A DNA stretch of 32,737 nt, taken from assembly GCF_009711405.1 (NCBI RefSeq), contig NZ_SMLW01000661.1, forward strand, positions 1 to 32,737, written 5' to 3'. Under the pieces are notes generated by a model. That model saw only the letters and a program-made list of their open reading frames with translations, did not search any database and had not been told where the DNA came from. Of the stretch, positions 21,987-31,202 are shown one piece after another; position 1 is the stretch's first letter; every line of letters begins with the position of its first letter. The translations under genes and the position numbers were made by a program. The stretch is from Fulvivirga kasyanovii (GTDB taxonomy: Bacteria > Bacteroidota > Bacteroidia > Cytophagales > Cyclobacteriaceae).

Positions 21987-22661
21987 ATGCTTACCCATAC
22001 CACAAACATCGTACTCCCATGGCCCAAGGCGGTACGCAACCTTGTTGATGTTATATTCAACATCTTCTATGATCAGGTTAGCACTTCCACATATCACAAA
22101 AAAGAGGAGGAAATCCTTACTGAGTACAACATCATCAAAAAATGCCAGAACAACCCCGAGCATTTTGCCCCTTTGTACAGGAAATACTACGATCAGGTGT
22201 TCATGTTCACCTATAAAAGGGTAGACCACCTGGAGGCAGCCGCAGATATTACCTCACGGGTTTTCTTAAAATGCCTGAAAAACATAGGCAGGTACAAATA
22301 TCAGGGAGTGCCATTCTCTGCCTGGCTGTATAAGATCGCCATCAATGAAGTAAATATGTTTTTCCGGCAGCAAAGCAAAATGGAGCGAACCGTAAGCCTG
22401 GATCATCATGACATGCGACAGCTTTTTGATGAAATTGACTACCAGGAAGTCCAAATTGATCCCGAGGTACTCATTACCGTGCTGCTTGAGCAACTGGATG
22501 AAAAAGAGATACAGTTTATAGAGCTGAGGTTTTTCGAAAACAGATCATTCAAAGAAATAGGGTATTTGCTCGGCCTGTCAGAGACCAATGCCAAGATAAA
22601 AACCTACAGAATACTTAAAAAGCTAAAGAAGATCTCAAAGCAGGTTAACTATAACGACTAA
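21987..22661 (+). CDS. ECF-like sigma-70 family RNA polymerase sigma factor
   Basis: This 224-residue protein has region 2 at about 60-130 (FAPLYRKYYDQVFMFTYKRV, DITSRVFLKCL, FSAWLYKIAINEVNMFFRQ). Region 4 is at about 165-218, with a helix-turn-helix (SFKEIGYLLGLSETNAKIKT). Regions 1.1 and 3 are absent, as in ECF (group 4) sigma factors. It redirects RNA polymerase to a special promoter set. The first about 45 residues (starting MLTHTTNIVLPWPKAV) precede the usual ECF start (near LTEYNIIKKC). No internal ATG lies closer to that point, so the ATG at 21987 is used with some doubt. A terminator-like hairpin ends 31 nt upstream. A membrane protein gene (4-nt gap) and an exported protein gene follow. 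No ZAS-type or FecR-type anti-sigma is present. Confidence 0.9.
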   Translation: MLTHTTNIVLPWPKAVRNLVDVIFNIFYDQVSTSTYHKKEEEILTEYNIIKKCQNNPEHFAPLYRKYYDQVFMFTYKRVDHLEAAADITSRVFLKCLKNIGRYKYQGVPFSAWLYKIAINEVNMFFRQQSKMERTVSLDHHDMRQLFDEIDYQEVQIDPEVLITVLLEQLDEKEIQFIELRFFENRSFKEIGYLLGLSETNAKIKTYRILKKLKKISKQVNYND

Positions 22662-22665
22662 TCCC

Positions 22666-22929
22666 ATGGCAAAAATAAAAGTAAAAATTAACGCACCGGC
22701 ACCGTCTATAGAAACCATTCACCAGTATCGGAACTTCAACCGGTTTATGGACCAGTATAAAAAATACTACTCCACCACCGGGATCAGGGACATGCTCTAC
22801 AACGATCGAAAAAAACTGGTCTACATTGTGATTATTATCCTGTTTCTGATGTTGCTGTTGTTTGTAGAAGATCTACATGGTACGGGGTCGGGAAAACATG
22901 CGAAATCAAAAATTGAACTATTGGATTAA
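22666..22929 (+). CDS. Small single-pass membrane protein next to sigma factor (possible regulator)
   Basis: This 87-residue protein is not one I recognise. About 50 polar, basic residues come first (MAKIKVKINAPAPSIETIHQ, then FNRFMDQYKKYY and DRKK). One strongly hydrophobic helix follows at about 51-67 (LVYIVIIILFLMLLLFV), then a short hydrophilic tail. Basic residues before the helix suggest that the N-terminus is cytoplasmic. It starts 4 nt after the sigma factor stop, the position normally taken by an anti-sigma factor, and the cytoplasmic-domain/one-helix layout would suit one. It lacks the HxxxCxxC zinc-binding anti-sigma motif. The anti-sigma role is inferred from position only. Confidence 0.72.
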   Translation: MAKIKVKINAPAPSIETIHQYRNFNRFMDQYKKYYSTTGIRDMLYNDRKKLVYIVIIILFLMLLLFVEDLHGTGSGKHAKSKIELLD

Positions 22930-25774: not shown

Positions 25775-25790
25775 CAAAAGTGGTTTTGGG

Positions 25791-25822
25791 CAAATTTACC
25801 ATTTATAAAATGACTTCACCAA
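25791..25822 (-). promoter_or_regulatory. Promoter for miaA
   Basis: Minus strand: TTTTG (its TTG is the complement of 25820-25822), a 21-nt spacer, then TAAATTTG (complement of 25791-25798), an exact match to the Bacteroidota consensus. The predicted start is about 10 nt before the miaA ATG. This is the best promoter in the window. It also argues that the divergent kinase gene starts to the right of it. Confidence 0.7.
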
Positions 25823-25875
25823 AAGCGGGGGATGGTGAATTCCGATTGGTGATTATTTGTTATCTTCACGAGGAA

Positions 25876-28239
25876 ATGAAGGATAGATCGAAAAAAGCAG
25901 AAGACCTCGTCGTCAAGGTAAATGAACTAAAGGAAAAACTCTTCGCGGAGAAGAACAAAAACTCCTTTACCAATTCCATTTTGGAGGGGGGCACCTTGAT
26001 CATATGGGCGGTCAACAACGATTTTGAACTTATCTCTTTCAATCAAAATTACTTCAACTTCTTTCTCCAGGAGAACCCTGGTATTAAGATAGGCTATGAG
26101 GAAAAGGGGGTAGTAAAAATTGCCAACTCCGATACTTTCTGGAAGCAAAAATACAAAAGGGCACTTACCGGCCGCTCCCATAATTTTGAGATCATGCTCA
26201 AGGTAATGGGCGAAGAACAATGGAAAGAAGTATTTTTAAATCCTATCTACGATACACGCGGTGAAATAACCGGTGTATCAGGTCTGGCTTATGACATCAC
26301 CGAAAAGATGCAGTCGCGGATCGCCCTTATGAAGAGCGAGGAAAAGTTCAGGAATATTTTCGAATCATTTCAGGACCTTTACTTCCGTTGCGATTTCAAC
26401 GGCAAGCTGACCATGCTTAGCCCTTCGGTGTGTGATATCATGGGCTATACGGAAGGTGAGCTTCTGGGGAAGCACGTTACCAACTTTTATCTTTATAATA
26501 TCCAGACCAAATTCCTGATCAGAAAGCTGGCCCAGGAGAAGCGCGTCCGGAATTTTGAAGCCAGTGTAATCCACAAGTCCGGAAAAATCATTCCGTGTAT
26601 TTGCAATGTCAGGGTAATACAGGATGAGCAGGGGCGCCTGAAACATGTGGAAGGTGTAGCCCGCGACATTACCGAATTGAAAAAGACCAATCAGGAGCTG
26701 CAGAGATCAAAAGAGCTTGCTGAAAAATCCCTTAAAATAAAGGAGCGCTTTTTGGCGAACATGAGCCATGAGATAAGGACCCCGCTCAATGGCATCATAG
26801 GTATGCTCCACCTGCTCGACGAAACCCAGCTTGATCCTAAGCAAAAAAAGCACATCCAGACGCTTAAAAGCTCTGCCGATATATTACTAACTATCCTCAA
26901 TGACCTGCTTGACCTATCCAAGATCGAGGCAGGCAAAATGGAGCTCAAGCATGTGCCTTCAAATACGGAGGCTATATTTGAAAAACTCACCCTGCTTTAC
27001 CGACAGCAGGCCTATGACAATGCCATTACCCTTAAATTTAAAAAGGGAAGCGATATCCCCGATTATATAGAAGTTGATGAAACCAAACTGATCCAGGTGT
27101 ACTCCAACCTGATATCCAATGCCATTAAATTTACCCCTCCGGGAGGCGTGGTAACTGTAAGCCTTGAGGTGTATAAAAAAAGAAAAAATGGCACTATCAT
27201 CATGGAGGGATATGTCAAGGACTCAGGGATCGGCATATCGAAGGCAGACCAACGAAAGTTATTTTCCAGCTTTACCCAGTTGGATAGCTCAAGCAAAAAA
27301 AGCTACAAAGGCACTGGTCTGGGGTTGTACATTTCCCGTAAGATCGTAGGCCTCTTCAACGGTAAGATTGGCATTAAATCCACGGAAGGAAAAGGGAGCA
27401 AATTTTGGTTCACCTTTGAAACCAAAGAAGTGGAAAAACCCGAAGAACAGGCTCAGCCGGCAGTTAAAATCACAACACTGGAACACTCACCCACCGTACT
27501 GGTAGTAGATGACAACAGTGTAAACCTTGACCTGGCTTATGAGATCCTGAAAAACGCAGGCTGTAAAGTAACCGTGGCATCCAGCGGAAAGGAAGCACTG
27601 GCTTTATCCGAAGGGCTGTGCTTTGATGTGATACTGATGGATATTCAAATGCCGGATATGGACGGTCTTGAAGCCACCCGGCAAATAAGGAAACAGTGTA
27701 AAGAGCAAACCCCACCGATAGTTGCCATGACGGCCTACTCCATGAAAGGTGATGAAGCAAAGTATCTCTCTGCAGGTATGGACGACTATATTGCCAAACC
27801 TATCAACCCACAGATACTAATACAGAAAGTAAACCAGTGGACGACGGATAAGGTAACTGAACCGGAAGTTCAAAAAGAAAAGACCGACAAACATCTGACA
27901 ATTAACCAAAACACCTTAGATTTACTTAAACAATATGCGGGTGAAGAAGCCGTGCAGGAGGCCCTGGAAGAGTTTGACGAGGAGTGTCGCATGCAGATAA
28001 GCGACAGTGCCAAAATGTTTGAAAGCAAAAACTTTAAGGAAGTTCTGGATATTTTACATACCTTGAAAGGCAATGCGGGTACGCTCGGTGTTGAAAAGAT
28101 GGCATTCCAGGCCGCAAAAATGGAAGACGAATTAAAAGAAAAAAAATATTCTAATTTTGTCAGGGATTTACAGTTTCTTAAATCCCTTCATGAAGAATTT
28201 ATTGAAGAAACTAAAAAGGTTGGACCAAAAACAAATTAA
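25876..28239 (+). CDS. Hybrid sensor histidine kinase (PAS-PAS-HisKA-HATPase-REC-HPt)
   Basis: From the ATG at 25876 the product has 787 residues and no membrane helix, so it is a soluble sensor. In order: a short coiled coil (1-30), PAS 1 (about 35-150), PAS 2 (about 155-270), and HisKA with phospho-His298 in NMSHEIRTPLNG. The ATPase domain has LISNAIKF, DSGIGIS and GTGLGLYISRKIV. A receiver domain has phospho-Asp589 in LMDIQMPDMDG, and a C-terminal HPt domain has His728 in HTLKGNAGTLG. All parts of an internal phosphorelay are intact. The frame is open upstream to 25744, with an ATG at 25810, but those starts lie inside miaA or its promoter. The next gene, a lone receiver, is 5 nt downstream and is the likely final acceptor. 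The signal sensed is unknown. Confidence 0.93.
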   Translation: MKDRSKKAEDLVVKVNELKEKLFAEKNKNSFTNSILEGGTLIIWAVNNDFELISFNQNYFNFFLQENPGIKIGYEEKGVVKIANSDTFWKQKYKRALTGRSHNFEIMLKVMGEEQWKEVFLNPIYDTRGEITGVSGLAYDITEKMQSRIALMKSEEKFRNIFESFQDLYFRCDFNGKLTMLSPSVCDIMGYTEGELLGKHVTNFYLYNIQTKFLIRKLAQEKRVRNFEASVIHKSGKIIPCICNVRVIQDEQGRLKHVEGVARDITELKKTNQELQRSKELAEKSLKIKERFLANMSHEIRTPLNGIIGMLHLLDETQLDPKQKKHIQTLKSSADILLTILNDLLDLSKIEAGKMELKHVPSNTEAIFEKLTLLYRQQAYDNAITLKFKKGSDIPDYIEVDETKLIQVYSNLISNAIKFTPPGGVVTVSLEVYKKRKNGTIIMEGYVKDSGIGISKADQRKLFSSFTQLDSSSKKSYKGTGLGLYISRKIVGLFNGKIGIKSTEGKGSKFWFTFETKEVEKPEEQAQPAVKITTLEHSPTVLVVDDNSVNLDLAYEILKNAGCKVTVASSGKEALALSEGLCFDVILMDIQMPDMDGLEATRQIRKQCKEQTPPIVAMTAYSMKGDEAKYLSAGMDDYIAKPINPQILIQKVNQWTTDKVTEPEVQKEKTDKHLTINQNTLDLLKQYAGEEAVQEALEEFDEECRMQISDSAKMFESKNFKEVLDILHTLKGNAGTLGVEKMAFQAAKMEDELKEKKYSNFVRDLQFLKSLHEEFIEETKKVGPKTN

Positions 28240-28244
28240 ATAGA

Positions 28245-28616
28245 ATGGCAAAGAAAATCTTACTTGCGGATGACAGCCCGGTAATACAAACCTTGTCAAA
28301 GAAAATATTCCAGGGACAAGGGTATGATTTCAAAGGAATAAAAACAGGAACACGAGTAATTGAGGAAATCGAGAACAACGACTACGACGTTATCATCCTG
28401 GACATAATACTTCCCGGAGCCGATGGCATGGAGCTTGCCAAAAAGATCAGGGGACTAAAAGACAAGAAAAAAGCTGAAATGCCCATAATTGCCATATCAG
28501 GCAACTATAAAAACTACTCAAAATCCGATTTTGACGAAGCAGGCATCAATGAGTACCTGATCAAACCTCTGGATTATGACGCCCTCGTGAATGCTGTAAA
28601 AAAATACACGCAATAA
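28245..28616 (+). CDS. Single-domain response regulator (CheY-like)
   Basis: This 123-residue lone receiver domain has the acidic pair Asp9-Asp10 in LLADDSP, phospho-Asp53 in ILDIILPGADG, Ser85 in AISGNY and Lys107 in LIKPLD. It has no output domain, so it would act by protein-protein contact or as a phospho-shuttle. It starts 5 nt after the hybrid kinase and its stop overlaps the next ATG by one base, so it is the natural partner of that kinase's HPt domain. Charged, Lys-rich linkers (GLKDKKKAEM) are the only departure from a minimal receiver. Confidence 0.92.
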   Translation: MAKKILLADDSPVIQTLSKKIFQGQGYDFKGIKTGTRVIEEIENNDYDVIILDIILPGADGMELAKKIRGLKDKKKAEMPIIAISGNYKNYSKSDFDEAGINEYLIKPLDYDALVNAVKKYTQ

Positions 28617-28891
28617 TGAGTATTAAGTATTCTAAGCATTTTTTGAATAAGCTTGAGGACCTGCTGGCTGAAACAGAATATATTCTTAGATACGAAAGAG
28701 GTAATTTTAAGTCAGGCTGGTGCATTCTCAATGAAAACAAAGTTATCATTGTTAATAAATATTATGCCATTGACGGTAAGATCAACTGTCTTCTGGACAT
28801 CATCAAAACGGTTGACATAGATAAAAACCAGCTAAGCGATAAAAACAGGAAATTATATTTGGAACTGGCACAAACCGAACTTGAGCTTTGA
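28616..28891 (+). CDS. Uncharacterised 91-residue protein in two-component/RqcH operon
   Basis: The ATG shares its A with the stop codon of the response regulator (TAATG), and the end overlaps the next gene by 4 nt, so expression is coupled on both sides. The sequence starts MSIKYSKHFLNKLEDLLAET, then has YILRYERGNFKSGWCILNEN, VIIVNKYYAIDGKINCLLDI, and a Leu/Glu-rich helical end. It has no signal peptide or membrane segment. The pattern of helix, beta hairpins (Y-x-RGNFKSGWC, K-x-IIVNKYY) and helix suggests a small compact domain, but I do not recognise a family. The two cysteines are not in a metal motif. The coupled gene order suggests a link to the downstream hydrolase. Confidence 0.82.
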   Translation: MSIKYSKHFLNKLEDLLAETEYILRYERGNFKSGWCILNENKVIIVNKYYAIDGKINCLLDIIKTVDIDKNQLSDKNRKLYLELAQTELEL

Positions 28892-29649
28892 GAATTACAC
28901 TGCTAGGAACCGGAACATCCCAGGGTGTGCCTGTCATTGCTTGCGGCTGTGCGGCATGTCAGTCTCTTGACTTTAGGGATAAGCGGTTACGCACATCCAT
29001 ACTAATTGAGAAAGACGGGAACAGCTTTGTTGTAGATACGGGCCCGGATTTCAGACAACAAATGCTTAGGGAAGGCGTCAAAAAACTTGACGCCGTTATT
29101 TTTACCCATGAGCATAAAGACCACACAGCAGGCCTTGATGATGTAAGGGCATTCAACTTCCGTCAAAAAAAAGACATGCCTATCTATGGCAGACCCAACG
29201 TTATAGAGCAGCTAAAGCAGGAGTTTAGCTATGCCTTCGGAGAAAAAAAGTATCCCGGTGTACCCCAACTGGAAGTTCACACCATTGACAACAACCCTTT
29301 CTCCATTGAAGGTGTTGATTTCATGCCTATAGAAGTAATGCATTTGCGTTTGCCGGTTTTTGGGTTCAGGATTGGTGACTTCACCTATATCACAGATGCC
29401 AACTATATTAGTCCTGAGGAAAAAGAAAAGATCAAAGGCTCAAAAGTACTGGTACTTAATGCCCTGCAAAAAGAACCACACGTGTCTCATTTTAATCTGG
29501 AAGAGGCGATAGAGCTGGCACTGGAAATAAAGGCAGATGCCACCTACTTCACCCACATCAGCCACCGGATGGGACCTCACAAGCAAGTGGACGAAGAGTT
29601 GCCAGAAGGAATAAACCTTGCTTACGACGGATTGGTTATAGACTTGTAA
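28888..29649 (+). CDS. PhnP-like MBL-fold metallo-hydrolase (TTG start)
   Basis: This 253-residue protein of the RNase Z/PhnP branch starts MRITLLGTGTSQGVPVIACG. The structural-zinc motif CGCAAC (Cys19, Cys21, Cys24) matches the three cysteines of PhnP. The dinuclear site signature is THEHKDH (His74, His76, Asp78, His79), and THISHRMG near the C-terminus supplies further His ligands. PhnP hydrolyses cyclic ribose phosphates in phosphonate breakdown, but no phn genes are near, so the substrate here is probably different. The start codon must be TTG at 28888: an in-frame TGA sits two codons upstream (28882-28884), and the conserved N-terminus begins exactly there. It overlaps the preceding gene by 4 nt and the following ATG by 1 nt. 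Confidence 0.9.
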   Translation: MRITLLGTGTSQGVPVIACGCAACQSLDFRDKRLRTSILIEKDGNSFVVDTGPDFRQQMLREGVKKLDAVIFTHEHKDHTAGLDDVRAFNFRQKKDMPIYGRPNVIEQLKQEFSYAFGEKKYPGVPQLEVHTIDNNPFSIEGVDFMPIEVMHLRLPVFGFRIGDFTYITDANYISPEEKEKIKGSKVLVLNALQKEPHVSHFNLEEAIELALEIKADATYFTHISHRMGPHKQVDEELPEGINLAYDGLVIDL

Positions 29650-31202
29650 TGCATAATAACTATTATTTCCTAAAACAGCTCAGTGCCCGGCTGGCAGAAG
29701 AGTTAAAGGGCTTTCAGCTCGTTGAGGCGTTTTCTCAAAACAAGAATGAGCTGATAATCGGGTTTGCCCGGCAAACCGAAGAATTCTATATCAAAGCCCA
29801 CCTCAACCCTGCCTTTTGTTGTTTATCATTTCCCGCCGATTTCAGCCGGGCCAGAAAAAACAGTGTTGACCTCTTCACTGATCTATCTATGGCCGAAGTT
29901 GAAAATATTGAGCAGTTTGACAATGAACGTTCATTCGCTATCGTCTTTAAAAACAACTATAAGTTGCTCTTTAAAATGCATGGCAACAGGTCCAACATTG
30001 TGCTATTTAAAGACGATGAAGTTGCTGAAGTATTTAAAAAGAGTCTGAAAAAAGATTTTGAAATAGACATCAACCAGCTTCACAGGCCAATTGACCAGTC
30101 ATATGAAGCCTTTGTTCAGCAAGGCGGTGACTACAAGGATCTGTTCCCTACTTTCGGAAAAGTGATTAAAAAGTACCTGCTCACCCATGGTATTAAAGAG
30201 AAAGATACTGATGCGAAATGGAAACTGATCCGGGAAACCCTGGGGCACCTTACAGAACAAAAGTATTACATTACCGAAATAGAAGGCCAGTTACACCTTA
30301 GCTTAATAAAGACCGGGTCGGTACAGCACGAATTCCATGACCCAGTCAAAGCCATTGACAGTTTTTTTATTCAATATATAAGCGAGCATGCTTTCAAAAG
30401 CATTAAAGGTGAGGCATTGCTCGACATCAATAAGCAGCTTAAGCAAACAGAGAGCTACGTCAGAAAAACCCAAAAGAAGCTTGAGGAAATAGAAAGCAGG
30501 CTTAACTATCACATACTGGCGGATATTTTGATGGCCAACCTTCATCAGGTGCCTGCTAAGGCCGAGGAGGTGACCCTTCAAAACTTTTATGACAACAATG
30601 CTCCCATCACCATTAAACTGAAACGTGACCTTTCTCCTCAAAAAAATGCGGAAGTTTATTACAGAAAGGCCAAAAACCAATCGGTAGAGATAGAAAACCT
30701 CAAAACAAACCTGAGACAAAAGCTACAGGCCATAGAAACCCTGGAAGAGCAAAAGATGGTGATTGAGGAAGAGCAGAGCCTTAAAGCACTCCGCAACCTT
30801 GTGAAGCGGGACCAAAACCAGGCGTCAAAGAAAAAAGAACACCTGCCATTTAACGCCTTCACCTACGACGGCTTTGATATATGGGTAGGAAAAAATGCCA
30901 GGAGCAACGATCGCATGCTCCAGCAGCACTCATTCAAGGATGACCTATGGCTTCACGCCAAGGATGTAAGCGGCTCTCATGTGCTTTTGAAGTATAAGGC
31001 AGGCAAACCCTTCCCGAAAGATGTGATAGAAAAAGCGGCGGAACTGGCAGCGCATTTCTCTAAAAGAAAGTCAGACACTCTCTGTCCGGTAATCGTGACG
31101 CCAAGAAAGTTTGTAAGAAAACGAAAAGGAGACCCAGCGGGGGCAGTGATGGTAGACAAGGAAGAAAAGACCTTACTTGTCAGGCCGAATAACTGGTCCT
31201 GA
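29649..31202 (+). CDS. NFACT-family protein (RqcH/Rqc2-like ribosome quality control factor)
   Basis: This 517-residue protein has an NFACT-N domain (1 to about 130, including FKNNYKLLFKMHGNRSNIVL), a helix-hairpin-helix-like segment near 165-185, a long coiled coil (about 255-395) and an NFACT-R domain from about 400 (FTYDGFDIWVGKNARSNDRM, DLWLHAKDVSGSHVLLKY). RqcH binds the obstructed 50S subunit and recruits tRNA-Ala to add Ala tails to stalled chains. B. subtilis RqcH depends on an Asp-Arg pair; here the aligned residues appear to be Glu93-Arg94 (FDNERSF), so activity may differ. The length is slightly below the about 570 residues of RqcH. Its ATG overlaps the upstream stop (TAATG). The gene ends in a hairpin that covers its stop codon. 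Confidence 0.9.
   Translation: MHNNYYFLKQLSARLAEELKGFQLVEAFSQNKNELIIGFARQTEEFYIKAHLNPAFCCLSFPADFSRARKNSVDLFTDLSMAEVENIEQFDNERSFAIVFKNNYKLLFKMHGNRSNIVLFKDDEVAEVFKKSLKKDFEIDINQLHRPIDQSYEAFVQQGGDYKDLFPTFGKVIKKYLLTHGIKEKDTDAKWKLIRETLGHLTEQKYYITEIEGQLHLSLIKTGSVQHEFHDPVKAIDSFFIQYISEHAFKSIKGEALLDINKQLKQTESYVRKTQKKLEEIESRLNYHILADILMANLHQVPAKAEEVTLQNFYDNNAPITIKLKRDLSPQKNAEVYYRKAKNQSVEIENLKTNLRQKLQAIETLEEQKMVIEEEQSLKALRNLVKRDQNQASKKKEHLPFNAFTYDGFDIWVGKNARSNDRMLQQHSFKDDLWLHAKDVSGSHVLLKYKAGKPFPKDVIEKAAELAAHFSKRKSDTLCPVIVTPRKFVRKRKGDPAGAVMVDKEEKTLLVRPNNWS

Follow-up and report, generated by a model that had tools for sequence, protein, structure and literature searches.

The 32,737-nucleotide stretch of Fulvivirga kasyanovii DNA analysed here (the window; positions 1 to 32,737 of contig NZ_SMLW01000661.1, part of the 7.17 Mb assembly GCF_009711405.1 in 680 contigs) carries a tightly packed unit of five genes, which encode a hybrid histidine kinase (HK), a lone receiver (REC), a 91-residue protein (X), a metallo-beta-lactamase-fold hydrolase (MBL) and an NFACT/RqcH-type protein (NFACT). 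Our preferred reading, which we put forward tentatively, is that the phosphorelay encoded by the first two genes controls the X-MBL pair, while the RqcH-type NFACT protein is co-expressed. The most economical account of the gene neighbourhoods described below would be that a conserved X-MBL pair takes response-regulator signals in more than one lineage and that, in Cytophagales, NFACT became attached behind it. The features of the unit are as follows.

25778..25875, no strand: gap between the divergent miaA and HK, likely place of the promoter (from gene coordinates)
25876..28239, + strand: HK, hybrid histidine kinase PAS-PAS-HisKA(His298)-HATPase-REC(Asp589)-HPt(His728) (Pfam, residue positions)
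28245..28616, + strand: REC, single-domain response regulator, Asp53 (Pfam PF00072, 82 bits)
28616..28891, + strand: X, 91-residue protein, candidate zincin-like fold without HExxH (conservation, predicted models, fold comparison)
28888..29649, + strand: MBL, metallo-beta-lactamase-fold hydrolase, TTG start, HxHxDH from residue 74 (Pfam PF12706)
29649..31202, + strand: NFACT/RqcH-type protein (NFACT-N, middle, NFACT-R), Glu93-Arg94 (Pfam PF05833, PF05670)

Conservation of the five-gene order

An earlier note on this DNA had described the five genes as tightly packed, and their coordinates, strand and spacing agree with that description: HK and REC are separated by 5 nucleotides (nt), and the following junctions overlap by 1 nt (REC-X), 4 nt (X-MBL) and 1 nt (MBL-NFACT). 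To this is added the retention of all five genes in relatives, which places the packing beyond chance. As part of the tentative reading given above, the five genes would form one translationally coupled unit, presumably also co-transcribed.

Conservation was assessed in 80 named loci fetched with X, which are the best 80 of at least 581 confirmed stretches and therefore represent the closest relatives only (Cytophagales). By tblastn, the order HK-REC-X-MBL-NFACT was found in 49 of them, HK-REC-X-MBL in 13 and X-MBL-NFACT in 12, the rest being X-MBL-NFACT with a partial receiver match (3), HK-REC-X (2) and X-MBL (1); some of these shorter loci end at contig ends, certainly so for MBL in L170, and L179 holds a short NFACT piece at a contig end. 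A count based on open reading frames (ORFs) gave similar figures for the same loci (all five genes, 48; X-MBL-NFACT, 14; HK-REC-X-MBL, 12; HK-REC-X, 4; X-MBL, 2), and it misses MBL in L131 and both MBL and NFACT in L201 owing to ORF starts or ends, which tblastn recovers.

In addition, 58 genomes including that of the window were searched, and NFACT and X were each matched in 52 of them; in one (G027) neither was matched. From the 60 regions fetched, 49 were counted after leaving out 11 regions with NFACT only, and two of the 49 had no X, leaving 47 that were scored. Within the window's family (34 genomes) all five genes were found in 28, and REC-X-MBL-NFACT, X-MBL-NFACT and HK-REC-X-MBL in two each. 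The 13 regions from other families were divided into HK-REC-X-MBL (4), HK-REC-X (1), REC-X (1), REC-X-MBL-NFACT (1), X-MBL-NFACT (1; L075) and X without these neighbours (5). The X-MBL-NFACT region, from genome G039, in fact has all five genes in order and was scored lower as its REC sits 157 nt away, the limit being 150.

The order is therefore kept well beyond close strains, both among the named loci (49/80) and in the family (28/34), and we discarded the view of it as a close-strain curiosity, which the earlier note had named as refuting its proposal. By the same counts the linkage, which had been called not a standard arrangement, is the usual order in the window's family. Of the named loci, that of Fulvivirga marina (L123) comes from the closest relative, with identities of 98% for X, 93% for REC, 93% for MBL, 90% for HK and 84% for NFACT, so that the small protein is better conserved than NFACT. 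None of the papers listed on NFACT/RqcH together with two-component systems, histidine kinases or Bacteroidetes described this operon, in searches that were not aimed at X or at PorX neighbours as such.

A complete phosphorelay upstream of X

The claim of a complete PAS-HK-REC-HPt relay holds, since Pfam detects PAS, HisKA, HATPase, REC and histidine phosphotransfer (HPt) domains and all four phospho-acceptors are present in the right domains (HisKA His298, internal REC Asp589, HPt His728 and lone REC Asp53); HPt His728 and receiver Asp53 are exactly the residues that had been named. Among 65 aligned receivers Asp53 is invariant, position 85 is always Ser or Thr (65/65) and Lys107 is kept in at least 95%. 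This arrangement resembles the ArcB and BarA hybrid kinase phosphorelays, in which HisKA-HATPase-REC-HPt is likewise combined with a separate receiver, but the window proteins score far below the corresponding equivalog cut-offs, the input is by PAS domains and the receiver has no output domain.

In 64 of the 80 named loci the gene immediately before X encodes an intact receiver, and in every one of these 64 the signalling protein that precedes the receiver carries an HPt domain, as judged by phmmer or by sequence pattern. Fifty-four of these proteins are kinases with REC and HPt, and ten have no detectable kinase part, namely that of L165, which is cut by its contig, and those of nine loci with proteins of 239-265 residues. 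In these nine, mostly Roseivirga (L128, L129, L130, L138, L141, L143, L157, L161 and L162), an HPt protein replaces the hybrid kinase and a REC domain is detected in eight; judging from domain content, the relay is kept there and the kinase gone. Further loss is suggested in three loci from metagenome assemblies, where partial receiver matches lie upstream of X without any kinase (L185:2486-2752, L186:7628-7991, the latter in two pieces in different frames, and L194:7824-7991) and X-MBL-NFACT is kept, an apparent decay of the relay.

The X-MBL pair as the core of the operon

The two genes behind the receiver are the most constant part of the unit. X and MBL are adjacent in 78 of the 80 named loci by tblastn, and in the ORF-based count the gap between them could be measured in 76, with overlap in 64 and a median of -4 nt; the gap between MBL and NFACT, measurable in 62, has a median of 2 nt. 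A wider set of 40 regions from a search of the phylum, of which three come from the window's own family and eight from family f23, has MBL as the next gene after X in 26, and in 23 of the 37 regions outside the window's family. These neighbourhoods indicate that the stable core of the operon is the X-MBL pair, and that X and MBL are the partners that travel with receivers.

The receiver at this place can be of a different kind. In six of the eight f23 loci (L236, L237, L238, L239, L241 and L242, six genera of one family, with gaps of -4 to 191 nt) the gene directly upstream of X-MBL encodes PorX, the type IX secretion regulator (NF052313), with 795-819 bits against a model cut-off of 300. What these loci have in common with the window is a receiver protein encoded by the gene immediately before X-MBL; the receiver of the window, with 123 residues, is a single domain that lacks the phosphodiesterase part, and against the full-length PorX model it reached 48.5 bits, below the same cut-off. 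PorX is described as having an output without a DNA-binding domain and with a metal-dependent phosphodiesterase instead (PMC11320123, PMC11974810); the former source gives this effector part as a zinc-dependent phosphodiesterase, and the latter, citing earlier work, states that PorX degrades cyclic nucleotides. The PorX of the window genome is encoded on another contig, C567.

A serious rival, to which we give a rather low probability, is that the clustering is neutral or concerns expression only, that is, a growth-linked operon with shared transcription and no functional contact between the relay, X-MBL and NFACT. The flanking miaA and pyk are also retained in many loci, and the modules come and go, X being found beside aroQ- or lolA-type genes in distant genomes. 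A second recurrent neighbour in distant genomes is a dehydroquinase cluster, a member of which comes directly after X in 7 of the 40 wider regions (L255, L256, L259, L260, L262, L264 and L272); the type II dehydroquinase (aroQ-type) label comes by Pfam from the L255 member alone. Shared expression would account less readily for an X-MBL adjacency that recurs across the phylum while the other neighbours change, for the very constant overlap of the two genes, and for the occupation of the same place upstream of X by two kinds of receiver and, once, by an HPt protein. The region with the HPt protein is L110:5511-6816, where its gene and X share 4 nt, as do X and the gene that follows.

Several observations weigh against control of X-MBL by receivers. 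Of the 296 genomes in the phylum draw 241 have X, but only 28 of the 139 in the class draw do, and it is therefore widespread but patchy. MBL is not the next gene after X in 14 of the 40 wider regions, and many of these regions have no receiver beside X. In sixteen of the 80 named loci the X-MBL pair has no intact relay before it (15 with NFACT; three with an apparent receiver remnant; L200 near a contig end). Conversely, genome G047 (L117:7418-12000) has HK-REC-MBL in order without X, and a search of that genome gave no X match. In the class draw PorX adjoins X in only two (G064 and G090) of the 26 genomes with both positions, and PMC11320123 indicates that phosphodiesterase catalysis by PorX mattered less for secretion than a zinc-induced change of shape.

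Nature of X

Neither Pfam nor NCBIfam has a family that X matches above its cut-off. An alignment of 56 members shows no variation at Gly29, Phe31, Cys36 and Asn47 and almost none at Arg25, Glu27 and Gly34. AlphaFold models of the window's X (pLDDT 80.8, pTM 0.67) and of a Pontibacter relative (85.7 and 0.74) agree on a helix-strand-strand-strand-helix-helix arrangement, and the top Foldseek matches (the first 20 and the first 19, respectively) are selecase, the Mycobacterium tuberculosis regulator PrpR, IrrE/PprI and minigluzincin zymogens. In a structural re-alignment, model 1 had its best Z of 8.1 to a PrpR chain (root-mean-square deviation 5.6, 81 residues aligned) and model 2 gave Z of 7.9 (5.6, 80 aligned) and 7.8 (3.5, 74 aligned), also to PrpR chains. 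The 38 matches listed for model 2 are, by their titles and by folds that we take them to have, zincin-type proteins, and the sister entries of 6cyj among the PrpR chains are presumably PrpR as well. The list for model 1 also includes Hsp90 and HECT chains at Z of 2-3. A nuclease-like fold of the PD-(D/E)XK type found no support among the fold-comparison matches listed. Entry 6cyj is PrpR, which is described as IrrE-like, lacking the HExxH residues and binding coenzyme A (PMC6765138).

Profile comparison pointed in the same direction when a broad alignment (A4) was used. The HExxH-bearing members of family M78 (IrrE/ImmA) scored 19.6, where 200 shuffles gave no more than 10.45, though with an hhalign probability of only 9%, and all M78 scored 17.4, above the maxima of 11.4 from 200 shuffles and 9.7 from 37 control families; divided by motif, the thirteen M78 relatives with HExxH scored 19.6 and the eleven without it only 1.6 against X. 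The motif itself is absent from X (0 of 151 distinct sequences). From the models, the fold matches, the profile comparison and the absent HExxH, X probably has a zincin-like fold without catalysis. Its predicted fold would be shared with M78, with the selecase minigluzincins and with the ligand domain of PrpR, and the absence of the HExxH residues with PrpR (PMC6765138), but X differs from this group as a protein of 91 residues that stands alone and lacks HExxH, and the window's X reaches no Pfam cut-off.

The fold assignment has its own counterweights. The best Foldseek E-values were 0.039 and 0.019 (both to selecase) and no match reached 0.001; Z was at most 8.1, and values under about 8 can reflect a common arrangement. 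Pfam PF06114 (M78) was not reached at its gathering score, a match of any kind being listed for one of 56 X members, at E 0.065, and none for the window's X, and the X profile searched against PDB sequences gave two matches, at E 0.2 and 0.79, both coiled-coil chains. Furthermore, the profile support varies with the alignment, since with the close-relative alignment A2 hhalign placed TBP-TOTE (14.1) above M78 (7.9). X may instead have a different fold, for instance a TBP-like one, and bind nucleic acids or peptides, in which case the likeness to zincins would be that of a generic alpha-beta arrangement. TBP-TOTE is also the commonest weak Pfam match (5 of 56 X members, best E 0.0029), but there is no TBP chain among the listed fold-comparison matches, M78 leads with alignment A1 (19.4, against 14.7 for TBP-TOTE), and with A4, where M78 with HExxH stands clear of its shuffles, TBP-TOTE scores 10.4 and its own shuffles reach 13.7. 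We consider this alternative fold rather unlikely; it touches only the nature of X and is compatible with any of the other explanations.

The MBL hydrolase

The nearest solved structure to MBL by sequence is PDB 6b9v (residues 3-252, E 1.9e-68), and the metal motif HxHxDH is present in 79 of 79 MBL proteins. We rejected PhnP as the identity of this protein, and the label PhnP-like used before is too specific, because MBL reaches 95.2 bits against a cut-off of 272.25 for the PhnP equivalog TIGR03307. With the PRK02113/6b9v proteins MBL has the match to 6b9v over residues 3-252 and the HxHxDH motif in common, but here too it stays below the cut-off (295 against 386 bits).

NFACT and its relation to the relay

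The identification of the last gene product as NFACT/RqcH is upheld by Pfam (PF05833, 110 bits; PF05670, 52 bits), which gives the RqcH architecture of NFACT-N, middle and NFACT-R, and by an alignment with Bacillus subtilis RqcH residues 231-561; the NCBIfam model RqcH_arch, by its name archaeal, was not reached (57 bits against a cut-off of 400). Glu93-Arg94 falls on RqcH Asp97-Arg98, in an N-terminal alignment that scores only 8 bits. This pair is reported as needed for the selection of tRNA-Ala by RqcH (PMC8373112). Arg94 is present in 110 of 110 aligned rows (106 distinct, some genomes having been fetched twice), and at the position of Asp97 the rows have Glu (91), Asp (18) or Asn (1). The protein shares its three domains and the Arg of this pair with the RqcH/NFACT group (NEMF, Rqc2), and differs from that group in having mostly Glu for Asp97, a strongly diverged NFACT-N and a gene placed in a phosphorelay/MBL operon. 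It could well function as an RqcH.

The model of the earlier note was that the phosphorylated receiver tunes this protein, giving a signal-regulated rescue of stalled ribosomes, perhaps together with RNA-end processing by MBL. It is favoured by the occurrence of all five genes together in 49 of the 80 named loci and 28 of 34 family genomes, by the retained RqcH architecture and by the invariant Arg. The two parts, however, are separable in both directions. In 71 rows, relay and NFACT occur together in 49, relay only in 8, NFACT only in 13 and neither in 1 (Fisher p 0.68; the table and the tree omit L131, L163, L170 and L201, and adding L131 and L201 gives 50/9/13/1 and again p 0.68), and a rapidly built tree with 76 MBL sequences requires at least three changes for HK-REC and at least six for NFACT, with independent pairs too few for a phylogenetic test. 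Relay and NFACT therefore vary independently and give no sign of dependence on each other. X-MBL-NFACT persists where only receiver remnants are left (L185, L186 and L194), and HK-REC-X-MBL can persist without NFACT. Outside the window's family 17 genomes have an NFACT match, and in two of them (G039 and G044) NFACT comes next after X-MBL; in G047, which lacks X, NFACT lies about 550 nt behind MBL, and in G052, where the search for X was negative, the contig begins at NFACT. By this table and the MBL tree we rejected a relay dedicated to NFACT, and tuning of ribosome rescue by the relay, left without support in these data, is in our judgement quite unlikely. The NFACT gene is, on its distribution, a detachable extra and not the obvious target of the relay.

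Borders and surroundings of the unit

The unit is bordered by the divergent miaA (start 25777) and the convergent pyk (end 31221). An alternative, longer ORF for HK starts at TTG 25744, and ATG 25876 was retained. A promoter consensus scan listed no site in 25778..25875, and its sites in the stretch were not in excess of those in shuffles. A candidate internal terminator in MBL (29074-29094, a hairpin with a T-rich tail) was rejected, there being 11 such sites against 6.7 (standard deviation 2.6) expected, and an Rfam scan of the window returned no family at threshold. Elsewhere in the window (21987-22929) lies an ORF of 224 residues, a putative sigma factor by eye from its translation, with an 87-residue ORF 4 nt behind.

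Proposed mechanism and significance

According to our preferred reading, control of X-MBL by the relay, the operon would consist of three modules of unequal stability: the phosphorelay (a hybrid kinase or a REC-HPt protein, with the lone receiver), the X-MBL core, and NFACT behind. A cytoplasmic signal at the PAS domains would start phosphotransfer from His298 to Asp589, His728 and Asp53. Once phosphorylated, the lone receiver, itself lacking an output domain, would bind X and/or MBL, and X, as a zincin-like domain without the catalytic motif, could act as an adaptor that tunes a phosphodiesterase-type activity of MBL. NFACT, co-expressed with these proteins, would act on stalled large subunits independently.

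A bolder extension, which we regard as unlikely, is that X represents a family of non-catalytic zincin-like adaptors that, across much of Bacteroidota in the broad sense, link response regulators to an MBL-fold phosphodiesterase, PorX-X-MBL being the same module in another family. These observations temper the notion, appealing but thinly supported, of a relay that serves to control ribosome rescue. They also bring forward a small and highly conserved protein, outside any named family, which is found again and again beside receivers (a lone REC or PorX) and one hydrolase, so that the output of such orphan response regulators becomes testable with a few purified proteins. If the extension is true, the adaptor family would be a new kind of two-component output, the PorX-X-MBL arrangement would connect X with signalling by oligonucleotides and with type IX secretion, and the Cytophagales version of the module would have a link to ribosome quality control.

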